From Acidobacteriaceae bacterium (GTDB lineage Bacteria; Acidobacteriota; Terriglobia; Bryobacterales; Bryobacteraceae), in assembly GCA_019240405.1 (NCBI GenBank), contig JAFAYL010000020.1:62001-126000 (forward strand): a stretch of DNA of 64,000 nt. The letters run 5' to 3'. Position numbers and translations under genes: made by a program. How positions within the stretch are numbered: the stretch's first letter is position 1; each line of letters starts with the position of its first letter. Shown one piece after another: positions 10,724-26,304 of this stretch. The notes below the pieces were generated by a model. That model made no database searches and was not told the origin of the DNA. It saw only the letters and a list, made by a program, of their open reading frames with translations.

Positions 10724-13700
10724 TTATTCTTCCGCACATCCCGGTTCGACGGGCGGCAAGACGTCACCGGCACGGGCGATCCAAACGTAGAGGGTCGGCA
10801 GAACGAAGATACTCATAACTAGCGTGGCGCTCAGTCCGCCCACGATCACAATCGCGAACGGCCGCTGCGAATCCGATCCAATTCCTCGCGAGATTGCAGC
10901 CGGTAACAGTCCCAAGGTTGCGACGAGCATCGTCATCATGATGGGGCGCAAGCGCAACACCGCGCCTTCAACCGCGGAATCCTCGACCGAATGGCCTCGC
11001 GCGCGTAACTGGTTGATGTATTCGATCATGATGACACCTGTCTGCACGGACACACCAAACAGCGCTAACATGCCAATTCCCGATGAAACGCTGAAGTGCG
11101 TTCCCGTGAAGAACAGAGCGAAGAGCCCCCCAATAGGCGCGAGCACCACCGTCACCATAACCAAAGCCGCCCATTTGAAGGAGTTGAACATCGAATACAG
11201 GAAGAGAAATATGGCCCCAACCGTAATGGGCACGATGACTTCCAACCGTTTGTTGGCGCGCTGCTCGCTTGCGTATTCGCCAGCCCAATCGATGTGATAC
11301 CCCGTGGGCAGCTTCACTTCTCGATTGACCCGATCAATTGCTTCTTCGACGGTGCTCCCCAGGTCCCGGCCGCGTACGCTGTACTTTATCGCGACGTAGC
11401 GCGAATTTGCTTCGCGATAGATCTCGGAACCTCCGTCGCGCACATTAACTTTCGTGAGCTGGGCGAGGGAAACGCGCTCTCCCGAGGGCGCCAACAGCCG
11501 GATGTCTTCGATTGCTTCCTTCGTATCGCGATATTCGGGAAGATAACGGGGGACCAGATCATAACGCTGCTCGCCTTGGAGCACCTGGCTCACGGCATTG
11601 CCGCCGACCGCCGTTTGAATTGCATCCTGCACATCGGCAACATTGATTTGAAATCGCGCTGCAGCATCCCGATCGACAGTGAAGTTCAAATTGGGCTGGC
11701 CCAGGACGCGAAACAAGCCCAAATCTTGAATCCCGCGGATCTGGCGCATGATACCAACGATCTGATCGCCTTTCGCTTCTAGAGTTCGTAAATCATCGCC
11801 GTAAACTTTGACCGCAAGCTCACCTTTTACCCCGCTGACCGCCTCCTCGACGTTGTCCGAAATCGGCTGCGAGAAATTCCAAATCACCCCGGGCATCTTC
11901 ACTAGCTCGCGATTCATGGCGGCGATCAACTCATCCTTATCCTCATGGAAGACAGGACGCCAATCGTGCTTGGGCTTCAAGTCTACGAAATATTCTGTGT
12001 TGAAGAATCCGGTGGTATCTGTTCCGTCATCGGGCCGCCCGACCTGACTCGTCACAGTTGTGGCTTCTGGAAACGACGCAAGCACCAAGCGAGCCCAGTT
12101 GGCAACTCGAATGCCCTCGCTAGGTCCTGTGCTCGGCGCAAGAGTGCCGCGCACCCAGATAGCGCCCTCATCGAGATGCGGCAGGAATTCGGAGCCGATT
12201 GCTCCTGCTATAAAGAGTCCGACCGCGCAGGCCAATAGCGCCGCTACAGGCACGAGAACCACAAATTTCAGCCGCACCGCACGCCGAAGCGCACGGCGGT
12301 AGTTGCGGATGAGAAATTCCATTACGGGGTTGTGCCATTCACGGGCATTCTTTTGGAAAAGGAGGCTCGAGAGAACCGGCGCGATGAGCATAGAAAAAAT
12401 CAACGCCCCAAGCAATGCGAAAGCCACTGTCAACGCCATCGGGCGAAACAGCCGGCCCTCCACAGCCTGTAACGTGAAGATCGGAAGATAGGCCGTGATG
12501 ATGATGGCGATTGCATAAAAGACAGGGCGCTGGACCTCGTGGGCGGCTTCTCGGATCAATTCCAGAGTGGTCTTCTCGCTCTTCTCGCGCCGGCCCATGT
12601 GCCGTACGATGTTCTCGACCATGACGACCGCGCCATCGACCACCATGCCGAAATCCAGTGCGCCGAGCGACAGCAAATTGGCGGGAACCTTGTTCAAATC
12701 GAGACAGATTGACGCGAACAGCAGTGAGAACGGGATTGTCAATGCCACGATTAGGGCGCCGCGAACATTGCCCAAAAACGCGAATAAAATGATCGCAACC
12801 AGGATGATTCCTTCAGTAAGGTTATGTAGCACCGTGTGCGTCGTGTAGTGAACCAGATCGCTGCGATCAAGGAATGGCACCACTTTCACGCCGGGCGGGA
12901 GAATGCGCTCATTTAGTTCCTTGACCTTCTCGTGAATCCCTTGAAGGGTCGAGTCTGAATCGGCTCCCTTGCGCAGTAGCACAATACCTGAGACCACATC
13001 GTCGTTATCGATAATGCAGCCATCCTCGCGATGGAGCGCCCTCGCAAAGCGGCCCAGCCGGATCTTTGGGCCCTGCGTCACCGTCGCGATGTCCTTAATG
13101 CGAATAGGTGTGCCGTTTGACGTTTTCACGACGGTCTCGCCAATATCGGCTACCTGTTTGATCAGCCCGACTTCTCGGACGTTGATCTGCTGTCTGCCCT
13201 CTTCAATGAAGCTCCCGCCCGTGTTCGCATTGTTATTCGAAAGCGCTTGCTCGACTTGAGAAATGCTCAGCCCGTAGGAGATGAGTTTGTTCGGATCAAT
13301 GCGGACCTGGTACTCGCGCGTCGTACCACCGAAGCTCGAGACATCCACGACATTCGGCACGGATTTGAACTGCTTCTCGAGAACCCAATCCTCCAGCGAT
13401 TTCAGTTCCATGAGGTCGTACTGCGGGTTGGTGCTCTTCAGCGTGTAGAAGTAGATCTGGCCCACCGGGCTGTAATCCGTCCCCATCTGCGGTTGCACAT
13501 TGGACGGAAGGGTCGCTTGAGCCATGCGTTCCACGACCTTCTCACGATTCCAATCGTTGTTCGAATCATCGTCGAAAATGAGCATCAGACTCGAGAGGCC
13601 GAACAGCGAAACCGACCGCAGATGCTCTAGATGCGGAATACCGTTCATCACGATCTCAAGCGGGACGGTAACTTGCTGCTCGACCTCCTCAGCCGCCTGA

Positions 13701-13864
13701 CCGGGCCATTGAGTGATGATCTGCACGTAATTGTTGGCTACGTCGGGATAGGCCTCGACCGGCAACCTTTTAAACGAAATCGCCCCCCAGCCGAGCAAGA
13801 AAATCGCCAGGGCAAGCACCAGCAGCCGGTTTCGAAGAGCGAAATCGACAAACGCGCGGATCAT
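10724..13864 (-). CDS. Heavy-metal efflux RND transporter, CzcA/CusA type
   Basis: 1046 residues, the normal length for the HME branch of RND pumps. It begins with the expected membrane helix (RLLVLALAIFLLGWGAISF) and the porter-domain start VEAYPDVANNYVQI. LDFGMVVDGAVVMVENIVRH in transmembrane helix 4 is the HME signature with the proton-relay acids. A second helix block near 890-1030 closes the pump. The inner-membrane trimer exports metal ions such as Co/Zn/Cd or Cu/Ag using proton flow. It follows the adaptor gene by 15 bases in an outer-membrane factor, adaptor, pump order. Which metal is exported cannot be settled by eye. Confidence 0.93.
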   Translation of the reverse strand: MIRAFVDFALRNRLLVLALAIFLLGWGAISFKRLPVEAYPDVANNYVQIITQWPGQAAEEVEQQVTVPLEIVMNGIPHLEHLRSVSLFGLSSLMLIFDDDSNNDWNREKVVERMAQATLPSNVQPQMGTDYSPVGQIYFYTLKSTNPQYDLMELKSLEDWVLEKQFKSVPNVVDVSSFGGTTREYQVRIDPNKLISYGLSISQVEQALSNNNANTGGSFIEEGRQQINVREVGLIKQVADIGETVVKTSNGTPIRIKDIATVTQGPKIRLGRFARALHREDGCIIDNDDVVSGIVLLRKGADSDSTLQGIHEKVKELNERILPPGVKVVPFLDRSDLVHYTTHTVLHNLTEGIILVAIILFAFLGNVRGALIVALTIPFSLLFASICLDLNKVPANLLSLGALDFGMVVDGAVVMVENIVRHMGRREKSEKTTLELIREAAHEVQRPVFYAIAIIITAYLPIFTLQAVEGRLFRPMALTVAFALLGALIFSMLIAPVLSSLLFQKNAREWHNPVMEFLIRNYRRALRRAVRLKFVVLVPVAALLACAVGLFIAGAIGSEFLPHLDEGAIWVRGTLAPSTGPSEGIRVANWARLVLASFPEATTVTSQVGRPDDGTDTTGFFNTEYFVDLKPKHDWRPVFHEDKDELIAAMNRELVKMPGVIWNFSQPISDNVEEAVSGVKGELAVKVYGDDLRTLEAKGDQIVGIMRQIRGIQDLGLFRVLGQPNLNFTVDRDAAARFQINVADVQDAIQTAVGGNAVSQVLQGEQRYDLVPRYLPEYRDTKEAIEDIRLLAPSGERVSLAQLTKVNVRDGGSEIYREANSRYVAIKYSVRGRDLGSTVEEAIDRVNREVKLPTGYHIDWAGEYASEQRANKRLEVIVPITVGAIFLFLYSMFNSFKWAALVMVTVVLAPIGGLFALFFTGTHFSVSSGIGMLALFGVSVQTGVIMIEYINQLRARGHSVEDSAVEGAVLRLRPIMMTMLVATLGLLPAAISRGIGSDSQRPFAIVIVGGLSATLVMSIFVLPTLYVWIARAGDVLPPVEPGCAEE

Positions 13865-13879
13865 CTTAACTACTCGTTC

Positions 13880-15016
13880 CTACTTCTCGTGCTCCGCGTT
13901 CAGCGCCAGCGCGTCATTGACCACTTCCTGCCCGGGCAAAAGACCCGACATGACGTCCTGTGTGCCGTTCGTGATCTTTCCGCCGGAAATCTCTATTCTC
14001 CGAAACTTCCCGCCTCCCGCCGGAATGAACACCCAATCGCGATCGTGCAGGTGTAAAACGGCACTGGCCGGAACCGTCGAGTAGATTCGGCCATGCTGGC
14101 CATAGAATGTCGCGGTAACGAACATCCCCGCGCGCATGATTCCGGGATTTGCCAACTCTATCCGCACCTTAGCTGTGCGAAGGTTTGGATCGAGAACGCG
14201 GCCGATGTTCGTGACCCGCCCCTGAAATTTACGATCTGGATAGGCGTTCAACACAACATCGGCAACATCTCCCAACTTCACCATCGGAATGTCGTTTTCA
14301 TAGACGTCGGCAAGTATCCAGACACGCGCAAGATTGGCGATTGTGAAGAGATTGGGTTGATTATCGGGCGTATGCACGCTCGCGGAAAGTACGACGTTTT
14401 GCTCGATGATTGTTCCGTCGGACGGAGCGTAGATGTTTACCACCGGATCATTATGCTTGGGATCCGCGCCCATTGTGCGAAGCTGTTGGGCCGCCGTTTC
14501 GAGGCTTACTTTCGCTTTCTCCTCGGTGTCCTCGGCCACCTGGAAATCGTTCAGCGAGATGGCCCCGTGTTCATACAGGAGCTTCGCGCGCTCTAGCTGC
14601 TTTTGCGCCAGAACCTCATCGGCTTTGGCTTGATTGTAATTTTGGAAGCCGGCAGCGATATCGTTGCTTAGCACTTTGAGAAGCAACTGGCCCTTCTTGA
14701 CGTCGTCGCCGAGCTTGGCGTAGATACCCACGACGCGTCCCGAAGCGAGCGAGATTACCGGAATCGATTTCTCCACATCCGGACTGACCACTCCAGTCGC
14801 ATGCAGCTCGGGCAGCTCTTCACGCCGGCCAGCCTTCACGAACGTAAACCGCTCGGGCTGATCGACCTGAATCAGATTGACGTCCGGCTCCTCTTCAACT
14901 CGCGCAGGTGGCGGTGCGGCTACTGATTCATCTACCTTGCCGCTGGAGCGGCAGCCCGTTATTAACTCGCCTAGCGCTATAGAGAACGCAGCGAAGATAA
15001 ATATCTTTCGCTTCAT
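13880..15016 (-). CDS. RND periplasmic adaptor (membrane fusion protein), lipoprotein
   Basis: 378 residues. The signal peptide ends in a lipobox, LITGC (about residues 18-22), so the protein is probably lipid-anchored. Downstream come the beta-barrel and lipoyl halves (SGRVVGIYAKLGDDVKKGQLLLKV and IYAPSDGTIIEQNVVLSASV) around a helical hairpin (about 120-175), then the membrane-proximal domain ending GLLPGQEVVNDALAL. It bridges the inner-membrane pump and the outer-membrane channel. The start overlaps the upstream channel gene by 4 bases (ATGA), so the two are translationally coupled. CzcB/CusB-like family; metal specificity unknown. Confidence 0.9.
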   Translation of the reverse strand: MKRKIFIFAAFSIALGELITGCRSSGKVDESVAAPPPARVEEEPDVNLIQVDQPERFTFVKAGRREELPELHATGVVSPDVEKSIPVISLASGRVVGIYAKLGDDVKKGQLLLKVLSNDIAAGFQNYNQAKADEVLAQKQLERAKLLYEHGAISLNDFQVAEDTEEKAKVSLETAAQQLRTMGADPKHNDPVVNIYAPSDGTIIEQNVVLSASVHTPDNQPNLFTIANLARVWILADVYENDIPMVKLGDVADVVLNAYPDRKFQGRVTNIGRVLDPNLRTAKVRIELANPGIMRAGMFVTATFYGQHGRIYSTVPASAVLHLHDRDWVFIPAGGGKFRRIEISGGKITNGTQDVMSGLLPGQEVVNDALALNAEHEK

Positions 15017-16290
15017 CGAATCACCTCGGCGCCCACAGACGTGTTCAGTTGATTAGCCGCCGAAAGATACGAGCCAACGAGATTCAGATAATTTAGCTCG
15101 GTATCGCGGTATTCCTTCTGCGCATCCAAGAAATCCAACAAGGAAGCTGCTCCGTGCTGATACGCAAAAGACACGGTGGAGCGTATCGACGCAGCCTCTT
15201 CCAAATACTTGGCCTTATAGGGTCGCAAAATCTCGAGCGTGCTTTGGAGCGTTGCGTATGCGGAATCGACATCGTGCAGCGTCGTCTGCTCAGCAGCATC
15301 GCGCAACTTCTTGTTGCGATCGATATCGATCAGCGTGTGCGCCTTATTTCCTTGATTACGGTCGAAAATACGAAGCGGAATACTGACACTGGCCCCTACA
15401 GTGTTGAACGCATCGGGATTGTTGAATGAGCCATTATGTGTCCACCAAAGGCCGAAAGTTGGATCAGTCGAACCATTCGCAACGGCGAGCCGGTAATCGG
15501 TTCTCGCTTTATCGAGACTCTGCTCGGCTTCCTTGAGATCCGGCCGCGTACGCAATGCCATGGCACGCAGCTCTTCGAGAGATACCAGCGGCTCATGGAA
15601 ATCGAATTTTTCGTTTACGTCGAATTCGTCAACAGGTGTCCGATCTCTAAGAAGGTTAAGTAGATCGATCTTCGCCGTGCGGACATTTACCTGCGCAGTC
15701 GCCAAATCCGATTCGAACTGGACCCGCTGCAATTCGACCCGTTGAAAGTCGACTTGAGCAATCGCACCCACCTTGAAGCGATCGCGGTTAATGCCGATCT
15801 CTTTGTCGTAATAGTCGAGGTTCTCTCTCGCCACTTCCAATACAGCCTTCGCCTGAAGCACCCGCACAAACGCATCCCGCAAGTTGAACATGAGGGTTCG
15901 CTCCAAATCCGCCTGCGCGGAGACCGCGATGTCGGTAGCTTTTTGAGCGCTCTCCAAGCGAAGCTCTCGTTTGTGCTGGCGTTCGTGGAGGTAGCTGATG
16001 GCTGGAATATACAAAGTACCTGCGAACGGGCGCCAAGATCCGTGCGATGGCGTAATTTGAGTTCCGTCGGCGGTCAGGGTGAAGTCGGGATTCGGCCGCA
16101 AAAATGCCGTGATCTCGTCGACACGCGACTCGTCAATCGTTTCCTGTCCCGCAAGTAGCGTGGGGTTGTTTGCTCTAAATCTTTCCTGGGTCTCCTGCCA
16201 GGTGAGTGCCCGCTGCGGACGTGGCGTCTGAGCCAAACCTACAACTGCAAACAGGAGACCGGAATACATACGCCAATTTCGGCGCTGCAT
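15013..16290 (-). CDS. TolC-family outer-membrane efflux channel (CzcC-like)
   Basis: 425 residues with a signal peptide (to about residue 20). Two repeated outer-membrane-efflux domains are visible as long coiled helices, with LTWQETQERFRANNPTLLAG at the start of the first and LVSLEELRAMALRTRPDLKEAEQSL at the start of the second. Both are typical TolC/CzcC repeat starts. The final helix reads LNYLNLVGSYLSAANQL. It forms the trimeric exit duct for the pump encoded two genes downstream. A small membrane-protein gene lies 34 bases upstream on the same strand and may be the operon leader. Confident family call. Confidence 0.88.
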   Translation of the reverse strand: MQRRNWRMYSGLLFAVVGLAQTPRPQRALTWQETQERFRANNPTLLAGQETIDESRVDEITAFLRPNPDFTLTADGTQITPSHGSWRPFAGTLYIPAISYLHERQHKRELRLESAQKATDIAVSAQADLERTLMFNLRDAFVRVLQAKAVLEVARENLDYYDKEIGINRDRFKVGAIAQVDFQRVELQRVQFESDLATAQVNVRTAKIDLLNLLRDRTPVDEFDVNEKFDFHEPLVSLEELRAMALRTRPDLKEAEQSLDKARTDYRLAVANGSTDPTFGLWWTHNGSFNNPDAFNTVGASVSIPLRIFDRNQGNKAHTLIDIDRNKKLRDAAEQTTLHDVDSAYATLQSTLEILRPYKAKYLEEAASIRSTVSFAYQHGAASLLDFLDAQKEYRDTELNYLNLVGSYLSAANQLNTSVGAEVIR

Positions 16291-16817: not shown

Positions 16818-17387
16818 TCAGTGCCCCGACCAGGGAAGCGCTTTCTTGGTCCAGATACTGTCGGGGTATTTCTGCTCGAGTTGCTGTGCTACCTTTCCTA
16901 GAATTGTATGGTCATTCGTACCTTTATAGTGGCTAACCGCAGCCCAATACATTGCCTCGGGTGCCGCGTCCGACTCAGGGTGATTCTGCACGATCGCGTT
17001 GTAGTCGCGCTCGGCGTCCGACCACTTCTTCTCCTTAAAGACAACACGTGCCAAACCCAATTCGAGCTGAGCTCGGAACTCCTCCTTCGGTAGATAGCCC
17101 TCGATGCGGTATCGCTCAGTGCCGTTTGAGTGGAGGATTAATACGGTTGGAGTCCACGATGCATCGAACCTGTGAAACCAGGCTGGATGTTCCTTGATGT
17201 GGGCCTCCACTGGACGGAAGCTCGCGTTGATGAATTTTGAGACTTCATCATCCGCGTAGGACTCGGCTTCCAGCCGAGCGCATGCGCCTCAAGCCGGAGC
17301 CGCGCTGAAATCGAGAAGCAGCGGCCGGCGCGAAGCTTTGGCTTCTTCAAGAGCCGAATCGACGTCTTTGCTCCATTGGACGGGCAT
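16818..17387 (-). CDS. Thioredoxin-fold selenoprotein (UxxC active site, in-frame TGA) with TPR-like tail
   Basis: 189 residues if the in-frame TGA at 17289-17291 is read as selenocysteine. The ATG at 17387 has AGAGG five bases upstream. The N-terminal part is a thioredoxin fold: a strand LLLDFSAAPA is followed by the TGA codon (position 33), then Gly-Ala-Cys36, giving a Sec-x-x-Cys motif where Trx proteins have CxxC. The cis-proline strand WTPTVLIL (Pro80) follows, and the reading frame is conserved in character on both sides of the TGA. A helical tail (about 110-180) has TPR-like pairs such as AERDYNAIVQNHPESDAAPEA. A perfect 7-bp hairpin with a GGA loop lies 11-27 bases after the TGA, where a bacterial SECIS belongs. 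Probably a thiol-disulfide or peroxide-reducing protein, cytoplasmic since no signal peptide is seen. The alternative is a nonsense mutation of a Cys codon. Confidence 0.82.
17262..17291 (-). promoter_or_regulatory. Selenocysteine UGA codon with bacterial SECIS-like hairpin
   Basis: The UGA codon occupies 17289-17291. Starting 11 nucleotides downstream, CUCGGCU (17278-17272) pairs perfectly with AGCCGAG (17268-17262) around the loop GGA (17271-17269), with a G-U pair able to extend the stem by one. The loop begins 18 nucleotides after UGA and has G in its first two positions. Both features match the published bacterial SECIS consensus recognised by SelB. The hairpin lies inside the coding frame, as bacterial elements do. 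Seen directly; its function is inferred. Confidence 0.78.
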
Positions 17388-17512
17388 AGAAACCTCTCGT
17401 TTATGGATTGTAAAACAACGGCTCGGCGAGTTGTGAAAGTGTTCTCAGGGTTTAATAGGCAAGCATTGAGCCGGCTGGGACCCACATGAACCAGAGAGCG
17501 ATCCCAAACTGA

Positions 17513-20182
17513 TTATTCTTCTCGGAGTGCAGTATTCGGATCAATTCGCATGGCCCGCATGGCCGGAATCAGAGATGCCACAGCCGCCATGGCGATGAGC
17601 ATCACAGTCATGGCCGAGAAGGTCAGCGGATCTAACGCAGTTGTGTTGTAGAGCATCGATTTGAGATATCGCGTGAGCGCCCAAGCACCGATGGTTCCGC
17701 CGATTGCGGAGGCGAGGGACCAACCCAAGCTCTCACCCAGCACAAGGCCGAGCACATGGCGGGTTCGCGCGCCCAATGCGATACGAATGCCGAGCTCGCG
17801 GGTGCGCTGCGTAATCAGATACGCCATCACCCCATAGACGCCGACCGCAGCGAGGAGCACAGCGATGGCGGCGAACATTCCTATGAGAAGCAAGTGGAAA
17901 CGTTGAGGCGCGAGAGAACCGGCCAGTTGTTCGCGCATGGTTCTTACATTGAAAACGGGTTCGTCACGGTCTACTGCGTAGATTTGGTTTTCGATAAGGC
18001 GTACGACAGCGGTTGGGTCCACAGTCGTTCTGACGAGCAGGCCCATCCGCGACATGAACGGATCCCCGCCTTGGCAGGTACAGCGGTATATCAATGGGTC
18101 TGATTCAGCGCCGAGCTCACTTCCCCTAATGTTCCCTACGACTCCGACAACGGTCCAGTGCATCCTACCAGTCGGCCCAATGAGAAGGTGTCCTAGGGGA
18201 TTTTCTCCCGGGAAAATCTTCTTTGCGAAAGCTTCATTCACAACAATGTTGCCGGGCGCTTTGGGCGTATCAGTTGGATCGAAAACGCGGCCGTTGAGAA
18301 GAGGGATACCAAGCGATTTGAAGAATTCCCCGCTCACAATAGTTACGTCTGACTGCGGCTGCTGGGCCACCGGAAGAGGCACGCGCCCGCTGACCTGAAA
18401 TTTTATTCCTCCGAAGCGGTCTTCGCCACTTACTGGTAAGTCTGTTGAAACGGCTGCGGAACGGATCTGAGGAAGCTGTTTGACCCGATCGAGGACCTCA
18501 TCATAGAAACGTACCTGATTTTCGGCTGTCGCATATCTGGAGCCGGTAAGGTTGAACCGAAGCGTCAGCAGATTGTCGGGGGAAAATCCAAGTTCGACGT
18601 GAGCAAGTCTGAGAAAGCTGCGGCCTAGCAGACCGGCCCCGATCAACAGAATAAGCGCGATCGCCAGCTCCGCCACTACTAGCAGGCGACGCACGCGTAC
18701 CGCTTTTCGGCTGGTGGTCTGGAGATGGCTGCCCGATTTTAAGGCTTCCTGGATGCTGATGCCTGCGGCACTTAGCGCCGGAGCTAGTCCGAACACCACA
18801 CCCGTGAAAACCGTAACGGCGAAGGTGAAGACAAGAGTTGGAACATCCAAAGTGAGGCGGGGATAATTTTGAAGCACCAGAGGTTTCCAGGCATTCAACC
18901 CCGCTACGGCAAGAGCTGCAATGAGAGTACCGAGTAAACCGCCTGGTAGCGCTAAGGCAATGCTTTCAGTGAGAACCTGCCTTACGATCCTGGCGCGTCC
19001 CGAACCGAGCGCGATGCGAACCGCCAGTTCCCGCGTTCGCGCGGTGGCGCGGGCAAGCAAGAGGTTGGCAAGATTCACGCAGGCGATCAACAGCACGAGC
19101 CCGACGGCTCCGCTGAGCACGAGCAGCGCCGGCTGTAGATCTCTTACCATGCGCCGCTGCAGCGGAGTTGCCAAAACTTTTATCCCATCGAGGAACCCCC
19201 CAGCCTTGAACTCTCTGGGGTACTCGCGATAGATCATCGTTGTGAGGCGGTTCAGATCGGTATCGAGCTGCTGCTGCGTCACATCGGGTTTGAGGCGCGC
19301 AACGATGCTTATGAGTCGCATGGGCTGGGTGATCATTCTGGCGCTTTCCACTGCTTCGTCCATGGGCAGCGGCCTCCAGATTTGGGTACGCTTCGGGTAA
19401 TCGAAACCTTGGGGCATAACGCCAATAACTGTGTTCGAGAGGCCGTCGAGGGTGATGGTTTTGCCCACCCAGGCCGGATCACTGCCCATGTGGCTGCGCC
19501 AGAACCTGTAGCTTAAGACCACAACGGCGGGAGCTTTTGTGCCCTGTTCAGTTGGAGCCAGATAGCGACCGATGAGCGGTTGCGTACCGAACACTTTGAA
19601 AAAAGATGGCGTTACTTGCGCGGCATCCAACTGCTCGGGTTTCTCGATGCCCGTCCAATTGATATTCAGATCATCGTAGGCGCCCATGTCCGCAAAAACT
19701 TTGTTGTTTTTGCACACGCTGTAGTAGTCAGCACCCACTGTAAACTCATTTTGATTTTTTCCCGCGCGCTCGCTGAGCCAGTACAGATGGTCGGATTCCG
19801 GATATGGGAGCGGACGCAGCATAACCGTATTGACCACGCTGAAAATGGTTGTATTCGCGGCGATGCAGACGGCTAGTGTCACCAACGCGATCAGCGCAAG
19901 CGACCGATCTCGCCGGAAGCCCCGAAGCGAGTAGCGTAAATCTTGGAAGAAATCCTCGACAAGGCTGACCCGCCGGGCATCCCGGCAATTCTCTTTCATC
20001 AGCTCGAAATTTCCGAAGTCTTGGCGAGCTTGACGCTCCGCTTGTTCCCGGCTCAAGCCTGCATTAAGATACTTACGCGTTTGCAGCGCAATGTGCGACT
20101 GAAGCTCGTCGTCAAGTTCTTCTTCCACTTGATGGGGGCGTCCGATTGCTTTTGCGCGGAGCAGGAGATCCTGGAAGTTCAT
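17513..20182 (-). CDS. ADOP-type MacB/FtsX permease with N-terminal prefix domain
   Basis: 889 residues. The N-terminal prefix domain (about 1-75), with LDDELQSHIALQTRKYL and ARQDFGNFELMKENCRDAR, is the permease-prefix type found on acidobacterial duplicated orphan permeases. It is followed by two MacB-periplasmic-core plus FtsX units: first DLRYSLRGFRRDRSLALIALVTLA, helix pairs near 375-470, then a second core from about 520 and final helices near 780-870 ending RIDPNTALREE. These proteins resemble MacB permeases but have no ATPase encoded next to them, and their substrate is unknown. It begins one base after the padR stop, with AAAGAGG inside padR serving as ribosome-binding site, so the two are co-translated. 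Confidence 0.9.
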   Translation of the reverse strand: MNFQDLLLRAKAIGRPHQVEEELDDELQSHIALQTRKYLNAGLSREQAERQARQDFGNFELMKENCRDARRVSLVEDFFQDLRYSLRGFRRDRSLALIALVTLAVCIAANTTIFSVVNTVMLRPLPYPESDHLYWLSERAGKNQNEFTVGADYYSVCKNNKVFADMGAYDDLNINWTGIEKPEQLDAAQVTPSFFKVFGTQPLIGRYLAPTEQGTKAPAVVVLSYRFWRSHMGSDPAWVGKTITLDGLSNTVIGVMPQGFDYPKRTQIWRPLPMDEAVESARMITQPMRLISIVARLKPDVTQQQLDTDLNRLTTMIYREYPREFKAGGFLDGIKVLATPLQRRMVRDLQPALLVLSGAVGLVLLIACVNLANLLLARATARTRELAVRIALGSGRARIVRQVLTESIALALPGGLLGTLIAALAVAGLNAWKPLVLQNYPRLTLDVPTLVFTFAVTVFTGVVFGLAPALSAAGISIQEALKSGSHLQTTSRKAVRVRRLLVVAELAIALILLIGAGLLGRSFLRLAHVELGFSPDNLLTLRFNLTGSRYATAENQVRFYDEVLDRVKQLPQIRSAAVSTDLPVSGEDRFGGIKFQVSGRVPLPVAQQPQSDVTIVSGEFFKSLGIPLLNGRVFDPTDTPKAPGNIVVNEAFAKKIFPGENPLGHLLIGPTGRMHWTVVGVVGNIRGSELGAESDPLIYRCTCQGGDPFMSRMGLLVRTTVDPTAVVRLIENQIYAVDRDEPVFNVRTMREQLAGSLAPQRFHLLLIGMFAAIAVLLAAVGVYGVMAYLITQRTRELGIRIALGARTRHVLGLVLGESLGWSLASAIGGTIGAWALTRYLKSMLYNTTALDPLTFSAMTVMLIAMAAVASLIPAMRAMRIDPNTALREE

Positions 20183-20183
20183 C

Positions 20184-20519
20184 TCAAGCCTCTTTAAGAA
20201 CGCGGCCGATTGCGCCGGTCAAGCGGATCCAATCGGTGGTTTCCGACTCTAACTGTTTTCGGCCCGGGGCGGTAAGGCGATAAAAACGCGCGCGGCGGCC
20301 CAACTCAGAGATACCCCATTCGGCTTTGATCCAGCCCTGGTGTTCGAGCCTGTGGAGCGCCGGGTAGAGCGAGCCTTGGTTGACTTGCAAAACGTCACCC
20401 GAGATCTGCTGAATTCGTTCCGATATGGCCCATCCGTGCATGGGGCTGTTTTGCAGAGTACGTAAAATGAGCAGATCGAGTGTGCCCTGGAGAAGATCGA
20501 GTCTAGATTGACGCTGCAT
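20184..20519 (-). CDS. PadR-family transcriptional regulator paired with an ADOP permease
   Basis: 111 residues, a winged-helix dimeric repressor of the PadR type. LLQGTLDLLILRTLQNSPMHG starts the recognition domain, VNQGSLYPALHRLEHQGWI is the signature helix-wing segment, and RRARFYRLTAPGRKQLE forms the wing and linker before the dimer helix. The gene is immediately upstream of, and translationally linked to, the ADOP permease at 17513-20182, a pairing common in Acidobacteriota. It probably represses its own operon. A perfect 10-bp palindrome lies directly before its start codon. Confidence 0.92.
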   Translation of the reverse strand: MQRQSRLDLLQGTLDLLILRTLQNSPMHGWAISERIQQISGDVLQVNQGSLYPALHRLEHQGWIKAEWGISELGRRARFYRLTAPGRKQLESETTDWIRLTGAIGRVLKEA

Positions 20520-20520
20520 A

Positions 20521-20530
20521 GTGTCGACAC
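20521..20530. promoter_or_regulatory. Palindromic candidate PadR operator
   Basis: GTGTCGACAC is a perfect 10-bp palindrome ending one base before the padR start codon region (ATG complement at 20517-20519). A dyad at this place could let the PadR dimer block its own transcription or translation start. The symmetry is seen; binding is inferred. Confidence 0.4.
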
Positions 20531-20600
20531 CCTACAATAACACGTTCGCTGTTTCAAAGCCATCAACACAGAGCGGGTTTCGACGCTGTCTGGCAGGATG

Positions 20601-20624
20601 TCGGAGCTTCTGCTTTAGCTCCGA
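20601..20624 (-). terminator. Hairpin downstream of the mazF-like gene
   Basis: TCGGAGCT (20601-20608) and AGCTCCGA (20617-20624) form a perfect 8-bp stem with an 8-base loop, 21 bases beyond the toxin stop codon. No T-run follows in the direction of transcription, so it may be a 3'-end-protecting or Rho-assisted structure rather than a classic terminator. Confidence 0.4.
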
Positions 20625-20644
20625 TTTGGCTTTTGGTGATCCAA

Positions 20645-21043
20645 CTAAATCTGGACGAGTCCTAAGCTGATTTGGATGGCTTTGTCCACCTTCCCCATTG
20701 TGGCCGCGTCAACAATGCCCAGACGCCGGATCAGGCGTTGCCGATCTATCGTCCGGATCTGGTCAAGGCGAATGGAGGAGCGCACCATCAACCCGTTGGC
20801 TCTGGTGGGGTCGAGGATAACTTCGACGGGATACGGGACAGGCGAGATCGCCGACGTAATAGCAGCGACAATGGTAAGTGGACTGTAGCGGTTACCAATA
20901 TCGTTTTGGACGATCAATGCAGGCCTGGTTTTTTTGATCTCGTGACCGATAGTCGGATCGAAAGAACAAACATAGATTTCGCCTCGGAGTAGTTGAATTA
21001 TTTTTTGCTTTTCGCTTTGCGGGCCACGCGAGACTTTTGCCAT
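20645..21043 (-). CDS. MazF/PemK-family toxin (endoribonuclease)
   Basis: 132 residues. The core LLRGEIYVCSFDPTIGHEIKKTRPALIVQNDIGN matches the MazF/PemK barrel: RGEIYV opens the fold and KTRPALIV includes the catalytic arginine region. SPLTIVAAITSA and ANGLMVRSSIRLDQIRTID follow. Such toxins cut mRNA when the antitoxin is lost. The ATG at 21043 lies inside the antitoxin gene (46-base overlap) with GAGGAAGAA just upstream, so toxin translation depends on the antitoxin message. The first 19 residues precede the fold and are variable. Confidence 0.9.
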   Translation of the reverse strand: MAKVSRGPQSEKQKIIQLLRGEIYVCSFDPTIGHEIKKTRPALIVQNDIGNRYSPLTIVAAITSAISPVPYPVEVILDPTRANGLMVRSSIRLDQIRTIDRQRLIRRLGIVDAATMGKVDKAIQISLGLVQI

Positions 21044-21267
21044 GCTTCTTCCTCAAGAGGAAACCACTCTGCAGCAATTCTTAGGCTTTCGTCCCAATTG
21101 GCTGTATACCCCGCTGCGAGCCGACTCCGCAGGTTCTCTCTGCCCTGTGTTTTCACGAAATGAATGACCGCAGCAGAGACGAAACGGCTTCGATCGCCTC
21201 TCGGGGCCACCCGATCGAGTACGGCTAGGGTCTCTTCCGGCAGCATGATATTGATGCGTTTGCTCAT
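20998..21267 (-). CDS. Ribbon-helix-helix antitoxin partner of the MazF-like toxin
   Basis: 89 residues. The N-terminal part KRINIMLPEETLAVLDRVAPRGDRSRFVSAAV has the strand-helix-helix pattern of MetJ/Arc-type (CopG-like) antitoxins: NIMLPEE is the DNA-contacting ribbon. The C-terminal tail (about 50-89) is charged and presumably wraps the toxin. Its 3' end overlaps the toxin start by 46 bases. A dimer of such proteins normally represses its own promoter; an inverted repeat, CACAC-5-GTGTG (21308-21322), lies about 40 bases upstream of the start. Confidence 0.82.
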   Translation of the reverse strand: MSKRINIMLPEETLAVLDRVAPRGDRSRFVSAAVIHFVKTQGRENLRSRLAAGYTANWDESLRIAAEWFPLEEEAWQKSRVARKAKSKK

Positions 21268-21307
21268 AGGAGTAGAAATAAGGTATCGTCTTTATATCGT
21301 TAGTTTA

Positions 21308-21322
21308 CACACTTTCCGTGTG
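21308..21322. promoter_or_regulatory. Inverted repeat upstream of the toxin-antitoxin operon
   Basis: CACAC and GTGTG arms with a 5-base spacer sit in the 93-base divergent gap between the antitoxin gene and an ADOP permease. An AT-rich, TATAAA-like stretch for the antitoxin direction lies between it and the start codon. Candidate operator for the antitoxin, or for the permease; short enough to be chance. Confidence 0.28.
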
Positions 21323-21360
21323 GATGTTAAATTCCGCGCTTTTAGCTCATTGTTCTAGGG

Positions 21361-23781
21361 GTGATGCTCATGATTGATGATCTGCGCTACGCGTGGCGCA
21401 TGGTGCTTAAATCGCCGCGGTTTACTCTGGCGGTAGTCGCGACGCTGGCGCTCACGGTTAGTTTGAGTACGACGGTGTTCAGCGTTCTCGATGCGGTGTT
21501 CATCCGGCCTTTGCCCTATAACCAAGCAGACCGGATTTTTTCGCTGAGAACTTATTCGCCCCAAAACTATACCCAGCCGGCGTCTTATCCGGAATATGTC
21601 GACTGGCGACGTGAAACGAAATCGTTTTCAGCGCTTGCCGCGTATAACAGTTACTCCAGTGTGAATTTTGAAAAGGGGGGAATGGCTGTCGCGCTGCCCG
21701 CAGTTTCGAGCTCAGATAATTTCTTCAATGTTTTTGGAGTAAAACCGATTCTCGGCCGCACGTTCGTCGCTGGAGAAGAGCTGCCCGGCCGCAATTTCGT
21801 CGTGGTCTTAAGTAATGAGGTCTGGCGGAGTTACTTTGGCGGGCGACCGGCCGCGCTGGGCGCAAAGGTAAAGCTGGATGGCATCTCCTATACGGTGATC
21901 GGCGTGATGCCACCGGGTTTCCGTTTTCCGATTAACCAAGTTAACGCCATTTACAGGCCGCTAAACATGACACCCATGCAGCGCACCGGCCGAGGCAATC
22001 ACTGGCTGCCGACCGTGGCGCGTCTGCGGCCCGGCATTAAGGCGCAAGCGGCTCAACAGGAGTTCAATCGCGTGCTCGATCAGCTCGGCCGCATTTATCC
22101 CGATACGAAAGGGCGCCGGGCGAAGCTCATCGATCTTCCTTCGTTCACGGTTGGCGATAGCGCTGCTGCACTGCGCCTGCTCCTCTATGCGGTTCTCGTG
22201 TTGCTTGCGATCGGCTGCGTCAACATTGCCGGCCTGCTGTTTGCGAGAGGAGCGCGCATTGAGCGTGAAATCGCGGTGCGCTCGGCGCTCGGAGCAAGCC
22301 GCGCGAGATTGTTACTCCAATTTATTGCCGAGACAGCACTTTTCGCAGTGGCGGGCGGAGTTGCCGGAATCGCGCTAGCGTTCGGTCTGTTGCGGGCTAC
22401 AAGCGTGCTGCTGGCTGCCGCGCTCCAACGCGGAACTGAGATACAGATCAATGTCACCGTACTGCTCGTATCGCTTGTGGTTGCGATTTTCGCGAGTGTT
22501 CTTGCGGGACTGGCTCCCGCTCTGCAAATGTCGGCGATATCCTCGAACTCGGTTCTTCGCTCAGGTGGCCGCGCCGGCGCTGACCGCGGGCAGCATCGCG
22601 TGCGCGCGGGGTTCGTAATTGCGCAGGTGGCACTGGCGCTGGTTCTGCTTGTCACAGCGGATCTTGTGTTCCGTACGCTGTCGGGCCTGCAGCACGCGGA
22701 TTTCGGATTCGATCCGGACCACATTTTGACCGCGGAGATCGACCTGTCTCCGGGGAGTTACGAACACAGAGCTGCTATCGCGAACTTCTACACTCCGATG
22801 CTGGAGCGTGTCCGAGCCCTTCCCGGCGTGAAGAGCGCCGGACTGATTCAAGTGGTTCCTATTCAGAACTGGGGTTGGAACAGCGACACTCATATTGCGG
22901 GCTATCCTCCGAATCCGCCGAATGAAGAGCGGCTCGCCGAGCTTCGATTCGTTACTCCCGGGTATTATGCGGCGTTTGGCGACCGCTTGATGCGCGGGAG
23001 ATTGCCGGATCCATCACGCGATACGCCCAACTCGCAGCGAATCGCGATAGTGAACGAGACGTTCGTCAAGAAATTCATTCATTCCGGCGATGATCCCGTC
23101 GGCAAGGTGATCGATAGCGATGACAAGGTGACGATAGTCGGGGTGGTGCGCGATATCCGGCAGAGCATCTATGAACCGCCACTTGCGGAGATGGACTGGC
23201 CTGTTTCGCAGATTCCGCGAGATTACGAATTGATGGTTGTGGGTTCCATGCACCTAGTACTCAAAACCGCAGGCAAGCCGGAAGCCGTTGTGCCAGATTT
23301 GCGCGCTATTTTTCATCAACTTGATCCGACGCTACCGTTTCGCGCGCCCGAAAGCATGAATCACGTGATCGCCCAGGCCCTCACGCTGGAGCGTCTGGAG
23401 AATTGGTTATTCGCTAGCTTTGCAGGCTTGGCTGTTTTGCTGTCGCTCGTCGGCTTGTATGGGCTGATCAGCCATGAAGTAGAAGCGTCGACTCGCGATA
23501 TCGGCGTGCGAATGGCACTTGGAGCGACGCCTTCCCGGATTTTCAGGATGGTGTACGGGCGGGTTGGCTTTATGCTGACGATCGGCCTGGCAGCGGGTCT
23601 CTTTGGAACTTGGATGCTGCGCGCTGTGATCCGCGCAGTGTTGACGTTGAATTGGCACCACGACGGCGCGGCGATCGCGAGCGTAGTTGCACTGTTCGCC
23701 CTGGTTGCTTTGCTATCGGCATTTGTTCCCGCGCGGCGGGCTGCCTCAGTTGAGCCGATGGAGAGCTTGCGAACGGAGTGA
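21361..23781 (+). CDS. ADOP-type MacB/FtsX permease (first of a tandem pair)
   Basis: About 803-806 residues. The likely start is the ATG at 21370 (MIDDLRYAWRMVLKSPRFT), with AGGGG eight bases upstream; GTG at 21361 and ATG at 21364 are also in frame. It lacks the N-terminal prefix domain of the 17513-20182 protein. Two MacB-core/FtsX units follow: helix 1 near 20-40, a periplasmic domain with TYSPQNYTQPASYPEYVDW, helices near 265-385, then a second half ending with three helices (about 680-790) and VPARRAASVEPMESLRTE. No ATPase gene is nearby. It is followed after 105 bases by another ADOP permease in the same direction. Confidence 0.9.
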   Translation: MMLMIDDLRYAWRMVLKSPRFTLAVVATLALTVSLSTTVFSVLDAVFIRPLPYNQADRIFSLRTYSPQNYTQPASYPEYVDWRRETKSFSALAAYNSYSSVNFEKGGMAVALPAVSSSDNFFNVFGVKPILGRTFVAGEELPGRNFVVVLSNEVWRSYFGGRPAALGAKVKLDGISYTVIGVMPPGFRFPINQVNAIYRPLNMTPMQRTGRGNHWLPTVARLRPGIKAQAAQQEFNRVLDQLGRIYPDTKGRRAKLIDLPSFTVGDSAAALRLLLYAVLVLLAIGCVNIAGLLFARGARIEREIAVRSALGASRARLLLQFIAETALFAVAGGVAGIALAFGLLRATSVLLAAALQRGTEIQINVTVLLVSLVVAIFASVLAGLAPALQMSAISSNSVLRSGGRAGADRGQHRVRAGFVIAQVALALVLLVTADLVFRTLSGLQHADFGFDPDHILTAEIDLSPGSYEHRAAIANFYTPMLERVRALPGVKSAGLIQVVPIQNWGWNSDTHIAGYPPNPPNEERLAELRFVTPGYYAAFGDRLMRGRLPDPSRDTPNSQRIAIVNETFVKKFIHSGDDPVGKVIDSDDKVTIVGVVRDIRQSIYEPPLAEMDWPVSQIPRDYELMVVGSMHLVLKTAGKPEAVVPDLRAIFHQLDPTLPFRAPESMNHVIAQALTLERLENWLFASFAGLAVLLSLVGLYGLISHEVEASTRDIGVRMALGATPSRIFRMVYGRVGFMLTIGLAAGLFGTWMLRAVIRAVLTLNWHHDGAAIASVVALFALVALLSAFVPARRAASVEPMESLRTE

Positions 23782-23886
23782 GCTCGGAACCCAAGGGAAT
23801 GGTTTCGCCTCTGAACCAGTAGGGCGCCCAGATCAAACCTGAAGCCGGAAGCGATGCATGTCACGCGACAAGCATGAAAGACTGAA

Positions 23887-26304
23887 TTGGCGATGCCCGC
23901 GGTGTGTATAGGTATGGACAGAATACAGGACGTGCGGTATGGATTCCGGCAGCTAAAAAATAGTCCAGCGTTTGCGCTCACCGCCATCGTGTCACTGGGC
24001 TTGGGAATCGGCGCTTCCGTAACTATGTTCAGCGCATTTCGCGCCGTCTTTCTCCGTTCCCTGCCTTATCGGAATGCAGATCGGATTGTCGAGATCGAGA
24101 AGGTCGGGGGAAATGGATATAGTCCGAGCAACACGATCGCAGATCTCGAGTTTTTACGCCGATATGCGCGATCCTTCGAGTCGGCCGCGGGCTACGGTTT
24201 TTTCGAAGCGGTCACACTGTCGGGCATCCCCGATCCAGCGGATCTGTGGGTGCGCACGGTGTCTCCCGAGCTGTTCCCTGTTCTCGGAACAAAGCCGTTG
24301 CTCGGCCGAACCTTTCTCGCCTCTGATTTTCAGAGTGGCGCGCCAGAAAGCGTAGTACTGGCTTACGCTGCGTGGCAAAAATATTTTCGCGGAGATCCGG
24401 GGATCGTTGGGCGCGCTATTTCCCTGAACGAGCAAAGCTTCACTGTGGTCGGGGTGATGCCCAAGGATTTCTATTTTCCACAGACGGGAATCGGAGCTTG
24501 GCTTCCTGACCGTGCTGTCGTGACAGACCCCCGGCGGAGTTACACAGCGATTGTGGCTCGATTGCGGCGGGGCGTTTCGCTCGAACAGGCGAGCGTGGAA
24601 CTGAGCCGTTTGACTCCCGCTCTTTTGGCTACGTATGCGGCATCTGAACGGAATTTCAGGCTTACGCTTGAGGAGGTAGCGACGCGCGACGTTGAGCATT
24701 ATCGCGCCGCGTTTCTGCTGCTGCTTGGAGCGACCGGCTTTCTGATTTTGCTTTCCTGCTTGAATGTGGCGAGTCTGTTACTAGGAAGAGCTTCGGCACG
24801 CGGGAGCGAGTTTGCCGTTCGAAGCGCACTGGGCGCGAGCCGCGCACGTTTGATCAGCCAAGTGCTGACGGAAAGCCTTGTACTTGCCGGATTAAGCGGA
24901 GCTTTAGGAGTGGTGCTCGCGTATTTGGGCAATCGCATCCTTCGCGGGTTTCTTCCGCCATATCTCGGAATTCCCAGGTTGGAGGATACACGGATCGATG
25001 GGGCAGCCCTGGGCTTCGCAGTAATGTTGACATGCGTCGTGGCGGTGCTTTTTGGCCTGGGCCCGGCATTCGGGCTCTCGGCGGCTAGGCTGAGCGAGGC
25101 GGATCGCGCGAGACGGTCGAGCGGCAGGAGTACGGGGGCACAAGGTCTCGTGCTGATCGGTGAAATTGCAATCGCTCTCATCCTGTTTGCGGGATCAATC
25201 CTCATGATCCGCGGCTTTGTTCGTTTGGCTAGTGTCGATCCTGGATTCCACACGGCGCACATACTTACGGCAACCGTGCCGCCCGGTCATGCTCGACGCC
25301 TCAGCCGCGAACTGTTAACGCAACGATATCGCGAGATGCTCAGAATCGCGAAGACCGTTCCTGGTGTCGAGCAAGCGGCGCTGACAAGTTACCTGCCTTT
25401 CGGAAACATCGCGGTTCAGCTTCAAGTGTATTTGCCGGGTGTGTCGCCGAATCCGTATCAAATCGATTTCCACGCTGTCAGCGCAGATTACTTCGCAGTC
25501 ATGGGAATTCCGCTTATGCAGGGCCGTTTGTTTAGCAGGACTGACCCGAAATTGGATAAAGGCCGGGTGGTCATCAATCGAACGATGGCGAACAAGTATT
25601 GGCCCGGTCAAAATGCGGTCGGGAAACACCTGAGCAGCCGGCCACCTCCGTCACCGCCGGATGTCACAGTTATCGGGATTGTGGGTGACACCCAGCACCG
25701 CACATTAAGCGGCGAACCGGTGCCGGAATTCTATCAATCGTACGAGCAGTATCTCGGGCCGGCGGTTGGAACCACGCTGGTGCTTCGCGCATTCGGCGAT
25801 CCGAATTCGGTTGCTTCGTCTTTGCGGCAAGCCATACACCGGTTTGATTCAGAGCAGGTGGTCGAGAATGAACGAACGATGAAAGCGACAGTGGAGCAAT
25901 CAATTGCAACGCCTCGATTCTACACAGTTTTGCTGGCTATTTTTGCCGCGTTAGCTCTTGTACTGACGCTTGTGGGCGTGTACGGAGTAGCTTCCTATGG
26001 GATCAGCCTTCGAACACGCGAGTTCGGCATTCGCGTAGCGTTGGGGGCGGAGCGGTATCAGTTGATTGGAATGGTTATGCGGCAAGGATTCATGACGGCG
26101 TTGGCGGGTATTATCGTGGGAGCGTTTGGCTCATGGACACTGGCCCGGTTGATGTCGGGGTTGGTATATGGGATATCCGTGAAGGACCCCGTTTCCTTGA
26201 GTCTTGCCGGGAGCGTTTTGATTGCAGGAGCGTTGATGGCGTATTATGTTCCAGTCCGGCGCAGCACGCGAATCGATCCGGCGGTGGTGCTTCGGCAGGA
26301 ATAG
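23887..26304 (+). CDS. ADOP-type MacB/FtsX permease (second of a tandem pair)
   Basis: About 796-805 residues. The start is more likely the ATG at 23914, giving MDRIQDVRYGFRQLKNSPAF, the usual opening of these proteins, than TTG at 23887. The two-unit MacB-core/FtsX layout is the same as in its neighbour: helix near 30, periplasmic domain to about 265, helices 270-400, second periplasmic domain, and final helices ending PVRRSTRIDPAVVLRQE. The two tandem copies share the plan but are clearly diverged, so this is an old duplication rather than a recent one. Substrate unknown; partner ATPase not in the window. Confidence 0.9.
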   Translation: MAMPAVCIGMDRIQDVRYGFRQLKNSPAFALTAIVSLGLGIGASVTMFSAFRAVFLRSLPYRNADRIVEIEKVGGNGYSPSNTIADLEFLRRYARSFESAAGYGFFEAVTLSGIPDPADLWVRTVSPELFPVLGTKPLLGRTFLASDFQSGAPESVVLAYAAWQKYFRGDPGIVGRAISLNEQSFTVVGVMPKDFYFPQTGIGAWLPDRAVVTDPRRSYTAIVARLRRGVSLEQASVELSRLTPALLATYAASERNFRLTLEEVATRDVEHYRAAFLLLLGATGFLILLSCLNVASLLLGRASARGSEFAVRSALGASRARLISQVLTESLVLAGLSGALGVVLAYLGNRILRGFLPPYLGIPRLEDTRIDGAALGFAVMLTCVVAVLFGLGPAFGLSAARLSEADRARRSSGRSTGAQGLVLIGEIAIALILFAGSILMIRGFVRLASVDPGFHTAHILTATVPPGHARRLSRELLTQRYREMLRIAKTVPGVEQAALTSYLPFGNIAVQLQVYLPGVSPNPYQIDFHAVSADYFAVMGIPLMQGRLFSRTDPKLDKGRVVINRTMANKYWPGQNAVGKHLSSRPPPSPPDVTVIGIVGDTQHRTLSGEPVPEFYQSYEQYLGPAVGTTLVLRAFGDPNSVASSLRQAIHRFDSEQVVENERTMKATVEQSIATPRFYTVLLAIFAALALVLTLVGVYGVASYGISLRTREFGIRVALGAERYQLIGMVMRQGFMTALAGIIVGAFGSWTLARLMSGLVYGISVKDPVSLSLAGSVLIAGALMAYYVPVRRSTRIDPAVVLRQE

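Follow-up and report, generated by a model that had tools for sequence, protein, structure and literature searches.

A predicted thioredoxin-TPR selenoprotein of Acidobacteriota with an in-frame TGA and a putative bacterial SECIS hairpin

Full-length DsbD carries a membrane domain between two periplasmic domains, and the chaperedoxin YbbN (CnoX) carries a TPR_20 domain. One report describes CnoX as an N-terminal thioredoxin fold followed by a C-terminal tetratricopeptide repeat (TPR) domain, and the Caulobacter protein, whose two cysteines both lie in the active site, as a reductase and a chaperone (PMC6282202). Among selenocysteine (Sec)-containing proteins, Table 1 of a 2026 review, which catalogues 119 families, includes a UxxC thiol:disulfide interchange entry of the domain family PF13098 (WP_011366075.1; PMC13188914). 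Sec-containing thioredoxin (PF00085, UxxC) has Sec at the first active-site position of a thioredoxin fold, and VPGUxxT thioredoxin-like and Trx7/PDZ (seleno)proteins (NF041383, NF041382, and NF041199) share a related thioredoxin-like domain. The gene described here is found in a 64,000-nt stretch of DNA from a soil bacterium of the Acidobacteriaceae, referred to as the window, and occupies positions 16818..17387 of the minus strand, with an ATG start at 17385-17387, a terminal TGA stop at 16818-16820, and a plausible ribosome-binding site, GAGAGG, 5 nt upstream of the ATG (17393..17398, minus strand). Translation with TGA as Sec yields a protein of 189 residues, in which a thioredoxin domain is followed by a TPR-like tail. 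The only internal TGA of the minus-strand frame is codon 33 (17289..17291), followed by GGC GCA TGC for Gly-Ala-Cys; therefore, Sec33 would be the first residue of U-G-A-C, and Cys36 (17280..17282, minus strand), the sole Cys or Sec besides Sec33, is the expected resolving Cys of a UxxC motif. The first-pass annotation had claimed that the TGA interrupts a single frame with thioredoxin-fold homology on both sides, that it falls at the first Cys of a CxxC active site, and that gene calling would return either two fragments or the downstream 130-residue piece alone. These claims hold, in that the Pfam thioredoxin domain spans the TGA, U-G-A-C is read at codon 33, and the standard open reading frame (ORF) listing of the locus contains exactly that fragment and nothing else (130 aa, GTG-started, 16818-17210). 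On the basis of family and codon conservation, the gene is predicted to encode a selenoprotein with Sec at TGA codon 33, with a probability of approximately 0.95.

The thioredoxin-fold domain comprises residues 1-108 (17064..17387, minus strand), as indicated by PF13098, PF13899, and PF03190 and by structural matches to DsbD-gamma, DsbH, and others. Thioredoxin_2 (PF13098) scores 49.2 bits over residues 16-108, above the Pfam cut-off and with the TGA inside the domain, Thioredoxin_7 and Thioredox_DsbH also exceed their cut-offs, and PF00085 falls below its own (22.0 versus 23.5 bits). The helical tail, which the first-pass annotation had described as TPR-like, comprises residues 101-188 (16824..17087, minus strand), and its description is borne out by a narrow pass of the Pfam model TPR_6 (27.4 bits against a cut-off of 26.3, residues 144-177) and by five helices in the structure model; at E up to 1, the TPR models of Pfam matching the protein are TPR_6, TPR_16, and TPR_14, and TPR_19 and TPR_20 are absent. 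The protein submitted to the Pfam, NCBIfam, genome-contig, and plasmid searches carried one extra C-terminal residue derived from the terminal TGA. The structure model (mean pLDDT 83, pTM 0.82) consists of a thioredoxin fold and five C-terminal helices (101-118, 122-135, 141-157, 161-173, and 178-188; mean pLDDT of ten-residue blocks 86-97), and the active-site loop, residues 30-38, is poorly modeled, with a pLDDT below 50. The positions that do not vary among the 22 aligned members include D26, Sec/Cys33, C36, and P80; Pro80 belongs to a Thr-Pro motif (17148..17150, minus strand) and occupies what we take to be the position of the thioredoxin cis-proline. The hallmarks of a UxxC oxidoreductase, a thioredoxin fold with UxxC and the cis-Pro position, are thus present, and a role as thiol:disulfide reductase appears likely. 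No obvious signal peptide is visible by eye at the N-terminus, which suggests that the protein is probably cytoplasmic.

Compared with the described systems, the protein shares its Pfam domain and UxxC motif with the PF13098 entry of PMC13188914, which of all the catalogue rows is the likeliest to include it and is broad enough to do so; the comparison is with the description in that table, which names no TPR. In contrast with Sec-containing thioredoxin, the protein scores below the PF00085 cut-off, has no WCGPC, and has a fused helical tail. The best matches to its thioredoxin domain include DsbD-gamma, both by sequence (1uc7, E 1.1e-6) and by structure (2fwh, Z 14.0, rmsd 2.0 over 106 residues), and DsbH (2ju5, Z 14.6, rmsd 2.0 over 111), with which 2kuc and 3f9u (both Z 14.8) are tied; more generally, the domain is nearest to reductase or isomerase domains of this sort. 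Most of the best 50 rows of the structure search match the thioredoxin domain alone, and YbbN is absent among these rows. Unlike DsbD and DsbH, the protein comprises 189 residues with neither the DsbD membrane domain nor an obvious signal peptide, and it has Sec in place of Cys as well as the TPR-like tail. Of the 574 positions of the full DsbD profile, only the last 111 match, scoring 31.6 bits where 330 is required. Matches to NF041383, NF041382, and NF041199 are weak and partial (30.4 of 275, 21.7 of 350, and 18.8 of 300 bits, respectively), and these proteins differ in motif and partner domain.

The alternative that fares best refines the selenoprotein reading without contradicting it: by analogy with CnoX (YbbN), the protein may be a Sec-dependent chaperedoxin that would hold clients, control their thiols, and pass them to GroEL or DnaK. 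The order of the domains, thioredoxin and then TPR, is the same in both, although the TPR of the window protein is identified by one Pfam model and the helical model. Two YbbN structures, 3qdn and 3qou, appear at ranks 14 and 15 in a Foldseek search, and the only two redox residues of the window protein are both in the active site, as stated for Caulobacter CnoX in PMC6282202. However, the tail of approximately 80 residues is shorter than that of CnoX and matches TPR_6 instead of TPR_19 or TPR_20, the overall superposition on YbbN is poor (rmsd 16-17, TM 0.37-0.40), and the thioredoxin domain is nearer to DsbD-gamma and DsbH by both sequence and fold. The likeness to CnoX is thus one of layout, and a chaperedoxin function is a tentative proposal, with odds clearly against it. 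Two matches to TPR_20 reach the cut-off in the source genome, in frames of 115 and 641 aa.

The genomic neighborhood could suggest another role, in which the protein serves adjoining genes for metal efflux and ABC transport. Three adjacent large ORFs at 10724-16290 on the minus strand resemble a heavy-metal RND efflux set, being CusA/CusB-like by eye and including an outer-membrane efflux protein by Pfam, which is located nearby downstream of the selenoprotein gene. Three ORFs of 805-889 aa at 17513-26304 resemble, by eye, MacB/FtsX-type ABC permeases, with 125 nt between the end of one of them and the selenoprotein start, and two overlapping short ORFs at 20645-21267 on the minus strand resemble, also by eye, a MazF/MazE-type toxin-antitoxin pair. 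Clustering of ORFs of at least 90 aa over 30 neighborhoods, with pieces and antisense shadows of the selenoprotein gene itself set aside, revealed no neighbor common to more than four loci. Because only a few close relatives have any neighbor in common, the adjoining efflux and ABC genes are taken as chance neighbors, which makes a dedicated link to them very improbable. A conserved operon was also rejected, with no operon partner pointing to a substrate; the selenoprotein gene seems to stand alone.

The conservation of the TGA was assessed among relatives of increasing distance. A scan of genome contigs, with patterns built from the window protein alone and hence of little bearing on other phyla, returned eight relatives with 57-68% identity, all eight with TGA at codon 33; these are not all independent, in that one MAG, QIAR01, contributes both L013 and L016, L009 and L093 are one gene, and the frames of L015 and L016 are broken further on. 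The two gene copies of QIAR01 are near-identical, with the frame of L016 broken after approximately 74 residues, and this duplicate could be a strain mixture. A seven-member profile matched 22 of 396 genomes of the phylum, 21 of which have one TGA. A 22-member profile, in which Sec was entered as Cys and which is thus unbiased against Cys forms, gave 25 of 26 near-full matches (approximately 180 or more of 186 profile positions) with one TGA in the same 396-genome sample, among the matches listed; the weaker ones align chiefly to the thioredoxin domain. In a 379-genome sample of the class, 14 of 16 matches at E up to 1e-30 have one TGA, and the end of a contig truncates one of these matches, in G404, at position 30. 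Both samples together, with two genomes in common, comprise 40 distinct genomes with a relative among the matches listed, 38 with Sec and two with Cys; these counts leave aside partial matches in G223 and G145 and a second one in G026, and four single-domain matches were read. The sequences of all 38 Sec genomes were read and place the TGA at the active site. The first-pass annotation had looked to homologues with an intact frame and Cys at this position as support for Sec: the frame on either side of the single TGA stays open in relatives with identities as low as 29%, and the two long Cys relatives (L083 and L105) both have CKGC. An in-frame UGA with homology on both sides, by which bacterial selenoproteins are recognized, is therefore found here. 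Single-domain relatives have CxxC, and the only two Cys relatives found are distant (28% identity for L047). Near relatives with TGC, TGT, or TGG at the codon and no hairpin, which the same annotation had named as evidence against Sec, were looked for and not seen, and the same-genus genome G637 and the same-family genome G672 have both TGA and hairpin. Two congeners, G537 and G552, have tRNA-Sec and no match to the gene, which seems to be patchily distributed within the genus. A tblastn search of the window protein against a plasmid collection gave no match.

The predicted bacterial SECIS hairpin, GCUCGGC-UGGAA-GCCGAGU (17261..17279, minus strand), is proposed on the basis of folding, frozen synonymous codons, and published SECIS constraints. 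It spans nt 13-31 from the UGA, over codons +4 to +9, its apical loop starts 16 nt (UGGAA) or 17 nt (GGA) 3′ of the UGA, and it agrees with the bacterial SECIS constraints as printed in PMC13188914. The minimum free energy of the 40-nt hairpin stretch is -16.2 kcal/mol, an unremarkable value for its composition (z -0.87; 40 of 200 shuffles as good). Synonymous codon entropy in 34 sequences is strongly reduced over the hairpin, the mean z being -10.1 for codons +4 to +9 and -0.47 for the 57 codons tested elsewhere, although codon -5, outside the hairpin, reaches -5.3; the z values ignore shared ancestry, with the remaining codons of these genes as the control. Synonymous variation is nil at +5 (Arg), +6 (Leu), and +8 (Ala), and random synonymous codons for the window residues form all six stem pairs in approximately 1% of draws. 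This codon test left out nine relatives with a second type of hairpin as well as L030, L009, and L016; an earlier version, which left out L016 and kept L030 and the second-type sequences then known, gave the same pattern.

The hairpin of the window (first type) is in place in 34 distinct near relatives, with 95.1% of cells paired versus 23-40% in slid controls, and 88.1% of cells are paired on the mixed set. Nine divergent relatives have another hairpin, which lies farther 3′ and covers other residues, and in which 100% of cells pair versus 22-63% when slid; its stem, GGAUGC-CGUGAC-GUAUCC in the commonest form, shows one double change, from A-U to G-C, in L087. Pair counts left out L009 and L016, and the split into two sets was made after the hairpins had been seen, such that the pair percentages lean towards them. 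The second-type relatives are L043-L046, L084-L087, and L104, of which seven have U-(I/L)-G-C and two U-G-(A/G)-C, and L030 differs from both types, the first loop nucleotide of its arrangement being G. Covariation within each type is weak, the observed score being reached by 73 of 500 shuffles for the first type and 47 of 500 for the second, and RNAalifold found no consensus pairs in a mixed alignment of 29 sequences, perhaps owing to the mixing of two hairpin registers. Codon-level constraint is the strongest evidence for the putative SECIS, and the argument at the RNA level consists of the frozen synonymous codons and the two different hairpins. In a tree of 47 proteins (33 first-type, nine second-type, two Cys, and three single-domain sequences; L009, L015, L016, L047, and L103 left out), all 33 first-type sequences form one well supported group (100/97), and the others fall outside it, intermingled and with several long branches. 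Because single-domain thioredoxins are found among the divergent branches, the wider family is not established as one clade.

The same comparisons bear on the reading of the gene as a pseudogene, an assembly error, or a true stop, in which case the actual product would be the downstream ORF of 130 residues. This reading is consistent with the ORF list, which shows that piece only, but the ORF would lack the beginning of the thioredoxin fold, conserved residues (D26, F27, and P31) precede the TGA, the codons over the hairpin are frozen, and the TGA occurs at the same codon in 38 of the 40 genomes with relatives among the matches listed. An assembly error is unlikely because 37 other genomes carry the TGA, and a pseudogene is rejected as contradicted by conservation, which leaves this explanation with hardly any probability.

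The first-pass annotation had made the Sec reading dependent on selA, selB, selC (tRNA-Sec), and selD in the same genome, and all four are found in the source genome (4.4 Mb, 63 contigs, approximately 96% complete): tRNA-Sec with anticodon TCA (75 bits), SelA (508 bits against a cut-off of 268), SelB (363 against 242), and SelD (349 against 125). An Rfam search of the whole window at gathering thresholds returned nothing. Among the Sec-form genomes, tRNA-Sec was found in 33 of 38 (18 of 21, 4 of 4 in G033, G059, G067, and G319, and 11 of 13); it was searched for and not found in the Sec-type genomes G026, G180, G242, G521, and G637, perhaps because these assemblies are incomplete, nor was it found in the two Cys-form genomes, G321 and G567. 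In the phylum sample, 22 of 25 Sec-form genomes have tRNA-Sec against a background of 238 of 396 genomes (one-sided Fisher p 0.002, kinship ignored), and the association of the Sec form with tRNA-Sec is thus present but modest. The source genome further contains a formate dehydrogenase-like gene (contig C47 of G000, locus L109 from 1501) with an in-frame TGA, ARIUHSSTVPGLGASFG, presumably at the usual Sec place of such enzymes, and a hairpin with a GGUCU loop after it; the one TGA lies inside the best-matching piece, which scores 177 bits, below the family cut-off. This gene is likely a second selenoprotein gene of the genome and serves as an internal control for the Sec reading. TGA also ends the gene described here and two of six other large window ORFs checked, and the latter indicates that TGA is not reassigned throughout. 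Some bacteria reassign UGA, but its reading here as Trp or Cys without selenium, for which no support was found, is rejected as the least probable explanation of all, given these TGA stops, the Cys (and in neither case Trp) of the two relatives without TGA, and the full Sec machinery.

With respect to the predicted selenoprotein, SelB and tRNA-Sec would decode the UGA at codon 33 as Sec, directed by the hairpin over codons +4 to +9, and the TGA that closes the reading frame would be a normal stop codon. The selenolate of Sec33 would then attack a substrate disulfide or another oxidized target, Cys36 would resolve the mixed intermediate, and the TPR-like tail would probably dock a protein partner or client; the protein would act in the direction of a reductase. 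A broader proposal, more likely wrong than right, is that of an uncatalogued Acidobacteriota thioredoxin-TPR family, nearly always with Sec, which might act as a selenium-dependent chaperedoxin guarding or repairing client thiols and might use alternative SECIS hairpins that lie over different codons from branch to branch.

Information regarding selenoproteins in this phylum is available from a 2006 survey, which gives three families with four selenoproteins (PMC1794560), and from the deep-Sep method paper, which lists an Acidobacteriota test genome whose three selenoprotein genes were all known already (PMC12013277). The first-pass annotation had suggested a little-described subfamily, and this suggestion agrees with the NCBIfam scan of the window protein, in which no model reaches its cut-off, and with Table 1 of PMC13188914, which has no thioredoxin-TPR entry. 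In an NCBIfam scan of the 22 aligned members, the commonest matches are to the same distant families, with cut-offs given for the first member, and a literature search by titles and abstract starts, in which subscription journals were thinly covered, found no paper on such a thioredoxin-TPR selenoprotein family. The sequences very probably represent a genuine but as yet unnamed family; its kind is well known, and no new principle is involved. In the absence of an NCBIfam model, annotation pipelines that read UGA as Sec for curated families alone are expected to truncate the gene, and truncated calls would strip the N-terminal redox site of the protein from databases; the family is worth naming and adding to annotation models. 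The codon-freezing comparison provides a simple way to spot a SECIS in alignments of suspected selenoprotein genes, and the family would add a thioredoxin-TPR architecture to the list of selenoproteins.
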